IMG/VR virus record: IMGVR_UViG_3300030333_001521
Coordinates: 1-25,311 of that record
Direction: 5' to 3' (one strand)
Source: a virus
DNA: 25,311 bases
Both the position numbers and the translations under genes were made by a program. The notes under the pieces were generated by a model that did no database searches, was not told the origin of the DNA, and saw nothing but the letters and a program-made list of their open reading frames with translations. How positions within the stretch are numbered: position 1 is the stretch's first letter; the number at the start of each line of letters is the position of its first letter. Shown piece by piece: positions 12,848 through 21,966 of this stretch.

Positions 12848-13332
12848 AAGGTCCACCAATCAGGCTTACTACGATTTCGTTCCCATTTAGCATAGTGTTT
12901 CTCGTTGATACAGTAGTTGCGATAAGCTTTGATAGGATCATTATCTTTGTATTGATCAGGCATAGCCTGTGCTACTGGTGTTTGTTCAGTTGAAATTTCT
13001 ATATTATCAGGCCATTTAGATAAAGGGTTTCTTAGTTTAGTTATACTTGCGTGTTCTTTCCCATATCTATATTTGTATTCATTACCTAATTCTAAAAAAT
13101 GTAAATACAGCCATAAATAATTAGCACTACATTCTCTTGCCCAAACAGTACAAGGATGATTCCAGTACGCTCTTTTGTATAAACCTACCTTGTCTGCATA
13201 CTCGTCACCGTCTAACTCTCGATGAGCTGTGCATAACATCTGAGCAGTTTCAAGCGGCATCTTGACTAACATCTTGTCAGGCTGTGCTTGTGCTGAAACG
13301 ATTGGGCTTCGATCAAAATAAAATATGTTCAT
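12844..13332 (-). CDS. conserved phage protein of unknown function, 162 aa
   Basis: The pattern MNIFYFDRSP...DKMLVKMPLETAQMLCTAHREL, then WNHPCTVWARECSANYLWLY and ELGNEYKYRYGKEH, matches a recurring phage protein I know only as conserved and uncharacterised. Conserved His, Trp, Arg and Glu residues suggest an enzyme or nucleotide-binding fold, but no standard catalytic motif is recognisable. ATGA junctions on both sides (25-aa ORF upstream, 80-aa gene downstream). Confidence 0.75.
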   Translation of the reverse strand: MNIFYFDRSPIVSAQAQPDKMLVKMPLETAQMLCTAHRELDGDEYADKVGLYKRAYWNHPCTVWARECSANYLWLYLHFLELGNEYKYRYGKEHASITKLRNPLSKWPDNIEISTEQTPVAQAMPDQYKDNDPIKAYRNYCINEKHYAKWERNRSKPDWWTL

Positions 13333-19566: not shown

Positions 19567-19669
19567 TATTACCTCTCTATCATTGGTTAAAAAATTTTTA
19601 AAGTGGCTAGAAGAAGGCACAAATATCTTCATATTTAATACACCACTCTACAATTATGTTGTCGACATC

Positions 19670-19725
19670 GTGCTACAAAGGATTCGAACCTTTATCTAAA
19701 TGTTTTACCATTAAACTAGTAGCGC
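19670..19725 (-). tRNA. tRNA-like element lacking the anticodon arm
   Basis: On the minus strand 56 nt fold as an incomplete tRNA. Acceptor GCGCTAC/GTAGCAC (6 of 7 pairs, one C-A mismatch); D arm GTTT-AATGGTA-AAAC with the conserved GG; T arm AAAGG-TTCGAAT-CCTTT with a perfect canonical TTCGAAT loop. Between D and T arms there are 7-8 nt (ATTTAGAT) in place of about 22, so the anticodon stem-loop is absent. No encoded CCA. It could be a decayed tRNA, a tRNA mimic, or a relic of integration at a tRNA gene. It cannot decode codons as it stands. Confidence 0.5.
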
Positions 19726-19740
19726 TACATAATTTATAGA

Positions 19741-19963
19741 TAGTACTAATACTTTTCTTTGTTATGTACTTCTAATTGCTATGTGAACTTACCTCCTTTC
19801 AAAGCCTATCACATACCACTTGTTGAAACACAAGGGCTAGACAGGCCTTCCTTTTTAAAGTGCGATTTCACCAACACTATAGTCTAGCTTTTAGCTCTCA
19901 TTGTGTTTCTCTTTCTCTCTCTCTCTCTCTCTATTGAGCTGCTGAGATCAAAAAAATTTTTTT
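19741..19963 (-). other. gene-free stretch with candidate structured RNA
   Basis: No credible ORF in 223 bp. Minus-strand features in order: a (GA)9 run (19915-19932), a long-range 7-bp stem GCTAGAC/GTCTAGC (19836-19842 with 19882-19888) enclosing about 39 nt, a small hairpin CTTGT/ACAAG (19819-19834), and AAAGGAGGT near 19790-19799, a perfect ribosome binding sequence with no start codon at the expected distance. I recognise no riboswitch family. Confidence 0.4.
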
Positions 19964-21849: not shown

Positions 21850-21878
21850 ATTATACATACAGATTTCAATTTTGTCAA
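21850..21878 (-). promoter_or_regulatory. consensus sigma70 promoter, leftward
   Basis: Minus strand: TTGACA (21873-21878), 17-bp spacer, TATAAT (21850-21855). Transcription would begin near 21843 and run about 750 nt through gene-free DNA before the 262-aa gene. The spacer carries AAATCTGTA at the same place as the promoter at 12573-12601. Confidence 0.85.
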
Positions 21879-21937: not shown

Positions 21938-21966
21938 TTGACAAGTTCGTTAACTAGACCTATAAT
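21938..21966 (+). promoter_or_regulatory. consensus sigma70 promoter of the packaging operon
   Basis: Plus strand: TTGACA (21938-21943), 17-bp spacer, TATAAT (21961-21966), with A/T-rich UP-like sequence just upstream. The ATG of the first gene is at 21974, about where transcription should begin. Confidence 0.85.

Follow-up and report, generated by a model that had tools for sequence, protein, structure and literature searches.

Comparative sequence analysis identified positions 19669-19725 on the minus strand of the window (the whole 25,311-nt stretch of marine phage DNA analysed here) as a retained, non-decoding tRNA-like domain, which forms one branch of a structured phage noncoding RNA of about 220 nt made up of P1, P2, P1b and P3 with the tRNA-like part at the top. 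The original prediction had described a tRNA-like RNA with intact D and T arms and without an anticodon arm, and we confirmed this with a covariance-model search of the kind it had proposed: Rfam RF00005 matched the 57-nt element (19725-19669) over model positions 1-71 with 43.7 bits, above the gathering threshold of 29 (E value of 2.2e-6 for the window), and this was the sole tRNA match within the 28,841-base record. At E values up to 1, the Rfam search of the window returned only this tRNA and a chance match to mir-84, with no match to GOLLD or ROOL. On the minus strand, the element consists of the acceptor 5' strand GCGCTAC (19719-19725), TA, the D arm GTTT-AATGGTA-AAAC (19702-19716; four of four pairs), ATTTAGAT (19694-19701), the T arm AAAGG-TTCGAAT-CCTTT (19677-19693; five of five pairs) and the acceptor 3' strand GTAGCAC (19670-19676), followed by the discriminator G at 19669; direct reading shows no encoded CCA. 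Also by direct reading, ATTTAGAT is all that remains at the site of the anticodon arm and variable loop, its 8 nt falling within the predicted 7-8 nt, and the covariance-model alignment places 3 nt at the 17 positions of the anticodon arm. The acceptor stem is near-complete, as predicted (six of seven pairs), but it is not fully canonical because of a C2.A71 mismatch. An anticodon stem with a 7-nt loop, as expected of a decoding tRNA, is absent, and with the arm gone the element cannot read codons; ARAGORN reported no tRNA at this site. The cloverleaf is not the minimum-energy structure of the element folded alone (-8.8 vs -11.3 kcal/mol), and minimum-energy folding, tried as proof of structure, gave a negative or neutral result (z about -1). 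Because such folding does not choose the cloverleaf, the structural claim is based on covariation and not on folding energy.

A pattern scan of IMG/VR found two relevant viral sequences. The first (L083) is 99.96% identical to the window virus over 14.9 kb. The second (L084) is a related phage in which the element lies inside a 236-bp island that is 98.3% identical to the window, while the surrounding genes are replaced or only 82-95% identical. Four differences separate the two islands. Two of them affect both partners of acceptor pair 5, which goes from T-A to C-G, and no other change falls inside the tRNA part; a third turns a U.G pair of P1b into U-A. When four changes were placed at random in the island by simulation, a compensated pair arose with a probability of about 0.0014. 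The L084 allele is also carried by the 5' half of a second contig, L293.

More distant relatives were collected through the small terminase (terS), and tRNA matches were found in three of the 40 records searched, with one of them (L365) being informative; 40 polymerase-related records had none. L365 carries, at the homologous site and adjoining the conserved leader AGCAATTAGAAGTACATAACA, a 73-nt tRNA-like RNA composed of GGACTGT, TA, the D arm GTTC AATGGTTAA GAAC, a hairpin CTATCT TTTT AGATAG as the counterpart of ATTTAGAT, a T arm and ACAGGTC. ARAGORN labelled it 'tRNA-???, anticodon (tt)', and since its anticodon stem ends in a 4-6-nt loop, it is unable to decode as well. Compared to the window, acceptor pairs 6 and 7, the last D pair (GTTC/GAAC, from a hand alignment of the D stem) and two T pairs are changed in a compensated manner, so that acceptor pairs 5, 6 and 7 all have compensated changes among the window, L084 and L365; acceptor pair 3 is mispaired in L365 and its T stem has one bulged A. 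The element could be a tRNA pseudogene decaying after one deletion, and the longer version at the homologous site, the acceptor C.A mismatch and the known accumulation of damaged genes in phage tRNA clusters are all in line with this explanation. However, the compensated changes in L084 and L365 speak against decay and the longer version is itself non-decoding, which makes a pseudogene improbable and already disfavoured. The original prediction had allowed for a single recent deletion and had proposed that a full-length tRNA in related phages would mark a pseudogene. A longer element does exist at the same site, but it is full-length in size only and also lacks a usable anticodon, which suggests that decoding capacity was probably lost before the anticodon arm was deleted.

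The structured RNA around the element spans 19601-19821 on the minus strand and is held together by covarying closing helices. It corresponds to the 236-bp island shared with L084 between diverged flanks, and P1, P2 and P1b are common to the window, L084, L365 and two further relatives, L361 and L372. The closing helix P1 pairs AAGTGG (19816-19821) with CCACTT (19601-19606); over the five sequences it occurs as AAGTGG/CCACTT and ATGTGG/CCACAT, with the A-U to U-A change compensated in L365 and L372 and two mismatches in L361. The P2 hairpin (19780-19815), with GGAGG in its loop, varies between TATGTGA/TCACATA and TGTGTGA/TCACACA, an A-U to G-C change being compensated in L365 and a G-U present in L372. 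In P1b, TTAGAAG (19769-19775) pairs with CTTCTAG (19607-19613), with compensated versions in L361 (TAGAAA/TTTCTA) and L372 (CAGAAG/CTTCTG). The tRNA-like part is flanked by P3, a perfect 8-bp match between AATTATGT (19727-19734) and ACATAATT (19652-19659), in which L365 has one compensated pair and one mismatch. The element had been predicted to stand alone beside a terminator. The terminator is real, an intrinsic terminator of the upstream genes with a 15-bp stem and a U tract just before the RNA region (minus strand, 20002-19969), but the element does not stand alone, as it has this 8-bp flanking inverted repeat and lies inside the larger RNA.

RNAalifold applied to three sequences recovered P1, P2 and P3 as well as the greater part of the acceptor stem. 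Among the three tRNA-bearing sequences, six pairs were changed on both sides, compared to 2.0 in shuffles and 0-2 in slid controls, a tally in which the D-stem counts suffer from a misaligned 9-nt D loop in L365. With only two independent lineages, the covariation support for the larger RNA is good and not overwhelming. Rfam contained no match for 19601-19821, and no DNA similarity to the window region was found in the phage collection. L361 and L372 keep both ends of the island and have other sequence in place of the tRNA-like part, indicating that this domain is dispensable in some phages. An alternative explanation is that a captured phage tRNA lost decoding and now only occupies a variable loop in the larger RNA as an inert branch, its pairing being kept since misfolding would disturb that RNA. 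The position of the element on P3 inside P1 and P1b and its replacement in L361 and L372 agree with this, and the linker region of GOLLD sometimes holds tRNAs (PMC12286853). We nevertheless consider it distinctly unlikely, as a spacer alone would have no need of the D and T loop sequences that a tertiary elbow depends on, yet these are kept, and as other families have no evident host RNA, the element lying between genes in the ninG-neighbour family described below.

Two further features were observed in this part of the window. A GA-repeat run (GAGAGAGA, minus strand) lies at 19900-19935, upstream of the structured RNA, and occurs at the same place in L361, L365 and L372; in the window, L361 and L372 it comes after a terminator. 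Between the early and terminase gene blocks, there are divergent promoters with perfect sigma-70 consensus (TTGACA-17-TATAAT) at 21850-21878 (minus strand) and 21938-21966 (plus strand).

Strong covariation was observed in a phage family in which the element neighbours ninG (L300-L341) and occupies the same place in at least 26 loci. Across 16 distinct sequences, 99.6% of the cells were paired seven of 16 pairs were changed on both sides and the covariation score was reached by none of 500 shuffles; such retention of the same kind of element further argues against a decaying pseudogene. The anticodon region of this family ranges from 6-bp stems with 3-5-nt loops (UUU, CUUG, GCAA) down to nothing (L312, L247, L252). 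Four members (L319, L321, L333, L334) have an extra hairpin in the D loop, and their D stem covaries from GTGT/ACAC to GCGT/ACGC. For the relatives L342-L360, no match was found.

Unannotated elements were also found in Lactobacillus plantarum phages and prophages (Sha1, phiJL-1, L216, L225, L243, L255) and in Hujiaoplasma phage zrk29-2. In Sha1, the element lies between genes for a RinA-type regulator and HNH/terminase. Conservation in the Lactobacillus family is bounded by the acceptor ends, with otherwise divergent flanks, and the shuffle statistics for this family alone were not significant. Separately, a degenerate tRNA-Leu-like RNA lies about 50 nt after the armless tRNA of L225 (region 13049-13160; acceptor GTGCTTG/CAAGCAC, T arm GTAGGGTGCAAATCCCTAC), and a portion of this RNA is found almost unchanged in widely differing L. 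plantarum phages (P1, P2, LP65, Lenus, ATCC 8014-B2, Lpa804), the copy in phage P1 being located between an annotated tRNA-Pro and tRNA-Gly. Group II intron domains were noticed in L255 (713-1028, minus strand) near a phage with an armless tRNA.

The gap between D and T arms that is filled by 8 nt in the window is 24-25 nt in a normal tRNA by our own count. Scans of IMG/VR and one scan of genome contigs, which prescribed nothing beyond the D-arm motif, the T-arm motif and a 4-20-nt gap, produced 196 sequence hits, whose D and T motifs are not independent evidence because the searches required them to be intact. Acceptor pairing in the viral hits had its main peak at seven of seven pairs (54 hits) and a lesser mode at two to three. 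Selecting for at least six of the seven acceptor pairs left 64 distinct elements, armless or mini-armed, of which nine came from bacterial genome contigs. A hairpin in the gap is impossible in 35 of the 64, and the others could fold into short hairpins, most of which have loops of 3-5 nt. In 12 of 34 records, no tRNA match besides the element was listed, and many elements lie a few nt from flanking genes on the same strand. Pairing of leader and trailer was considered as a class feature and dismissed, being present in seven of 63 elements compared to 4.4 expected, which is not above chance. We also rejected the gap-7 hits in bacterial genomes, tRNA-Ser variable arms that imitate a D arm, because their acceptor does not pair.

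Hits of the L212 type that end in ACCA were likewise set aside as hybrids with an unpaired 5' part, which are probably integration remnants. Such hybrids, and the fact that partial tRNA genes left by integration are common (PMC9897764), raise the question of whether integration into a host tRNA gene left the window element behind as an attachment-site remnant or a hybrid. This origin is highly improbable and already disfavoured because of the compensated pairs: both strands of a single acceptor stem are present, rather than only half of a tRNA, and they covary, no integrase was seen among the proteins examined, and the L. plantarum examples sit between RinA-type regulator and HNH/terminase genes.

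In the phage collection, no DNA similarity was found for the families L237 and L102, L260 had only a partial endolysin match, and the short match of L213 fell outside the element. In L213, a 180-kb contig, a long noncoding stretch that is possibly another structured RNA follows the element at about 120-780 nt and includes a 44-bp match to Cellulophaga phage phi14:2. One contig (CANQZS010000001.1; L162 and L184) carries two tandem armless elements that differ in their mini-hairpins and by a compensated D stem (GTTT/AAAC vs GTTC/GAAC).

Because relatives keep the shape through matched mutations and many unrelated phages carry similar elements, the window element appears, from comparative evidence, to be an RNA device that has been retained and not a dead gene. 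The suggestion of a retained tRNA mimic in the original prediction is thus supported by the compensated acceptor, D and T stems among relatives and by similar conserved non-decoding elements elsewhere. We tentatively favour, with somewhat less than even confidence, that the domain presents its elbow and acceptor to host enzymes, most likely RNase P, and thereby marks phage RNA for cutting or end protection. In this mechanism, the elbow formed by the D and T loops and the coaxial stack of acceptor and T stems would be offered to enzymes that recognise these features irrespective of the anticodon arm, with RNase P (together with RNase Z or exonucleases) the most likely, and the phage RNA would be cut, or given protected ends, at the position of the element in the operon, like tRNA-like processing signals elsewhere. 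As such enzymes can do without the anticodon arm, it could be closed off by a short loop or disappear altogether. The elbow is known to be contacted by RNase P, RNase Z and the CCA enzyme (PMC4810234), and RNase P cleaves substrates consisting of only an acceptor and T stem-loop, as well as the phage M3 and C4 RNAs (PMC11143913). The operon position, often a few nt from genes on the same strand, fits a processing or protection signal. Encoded CCA is rare (three of 64 elements) and first pairs and discriminators are heterogeneous, which makes a single synthetase or aminoacylation identity unlikely for the class.

Several observations count against this proposal. The paired leader and trailer (P3) in the window could hinder RNase P, and the D arm is kept although RNase P does not need it; L361 and L372 lack the domain, the acceptor has its C.A mismatch and minimum-energy folding prefers another structure. 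Given that leader and trailer are paired, that the D arm persists and that some relatives are without the element, both the inert branch and a trans-acting mimic stay serious rivals. As a mimic or decoy, the released RNA would occupy or neutralise a protein that binds tRNAs, be it a defence nuclease, EF-Tu, a synthetase or a tRNA-modifying enzyme, and without an anticodon loop it could not be cut by anticodon nucleases. L-shaped elements are retained across unrelated phages and are the only tRNA-like RNA in several phage records, and tRNAs are a known means by which phages counter tRNA-targeting defences (PMC10264068, PMC11555353), all of which fits a mimic. We consider it possible though unlikely, since acceptor ends and discriminators are not conserved, a decoy for anticodon nucleases should retain the anticodon loop, and the window element is embedded in a larger RNA through its outer helix.

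More generally, phages of many hosts may encode an overlooked class of non-decoding tRNA-like RNAs in which selection removed or capped the anticodon arm and kept elbow and acceptor, sometimes inside larger RNAs, to recruit or occupy the host machinery that handles tRNAs, a proposal that we hold to be evenly balanced between right and wrong. If functional, these elements would be a case of viruses of bacteria using the elbow-acceptor half of a tRNA on its own, would provide natural substrates for what RNase P, the CCA enzyme, EF-Tu and tRNA-targeting defences recognise, and would widen the question of phage tRNA roles past codon supply; culturable Lactiplantibacillus phages make their function testable. 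Phage annotations miss them because tRNA finders discard them.

According to a 2024 paper, all known bacterial tRNAs are canonical cloverleaves (PMC11551756). Our searches of the open literature turned up no account of phage tRNA-like RNAs that lack the anticodon arm. Non-decoding tRNA mimics are already known from other settings, and it is their anticodon-armless form in phages that is apparently undescribed in that literature. The tRNA-like domain of tmRNA, the tRNA-like structures (TLSs) of plant RNA viruses and the gammaherpesvirus vtRNAs all mimic tRNAs with the anticodon region missing or non-decoding, and viral TLSs are covered by a general statement in PMC4810234. Compared by description, the window element differs from these in having no tag reading frame, in not lying at a genome 3' end and in its hosts. 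Phage tRNAs that evade tRNA-targeting defences are also phage-encoded tRNA-like RNAs (PMC10264068, PMC11555353), but they are full decoding tRNAs with altered or replacing anticodons. GOLLD and ROOL are large structured phage RNAs near tRNA islands, and the GOLLD linker can hold tRNAs (PMC12286853), whereas the window RNA matches neither of them in Rfam, is only about 220 nt long and carries a tRNA-like part without an anticodon arm. The phage M3 RNA and C4 antisense RNA are noncoding RNAs that the RNase P of the host processes (PMC11143913); set apart by their descriptions, they are not reported there as D/T-arm tRNA-like elements. Plant mitochondrial t-elements are tRNA-derived, non-decoding and located at transcript ends, and they are processed by RNase P and RNase Z and CCA-tailed without being aminoacylated (PMC11658184). 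As in t-elements, a tRNA-like fold is retained here without decoding, judged by covariation; however, t-elements are organellar and not described as systematically lacking the anticodon arm, whereas the elements reported here occur in phages, have compensated stems and, in the window, lie inside a larger RNA.
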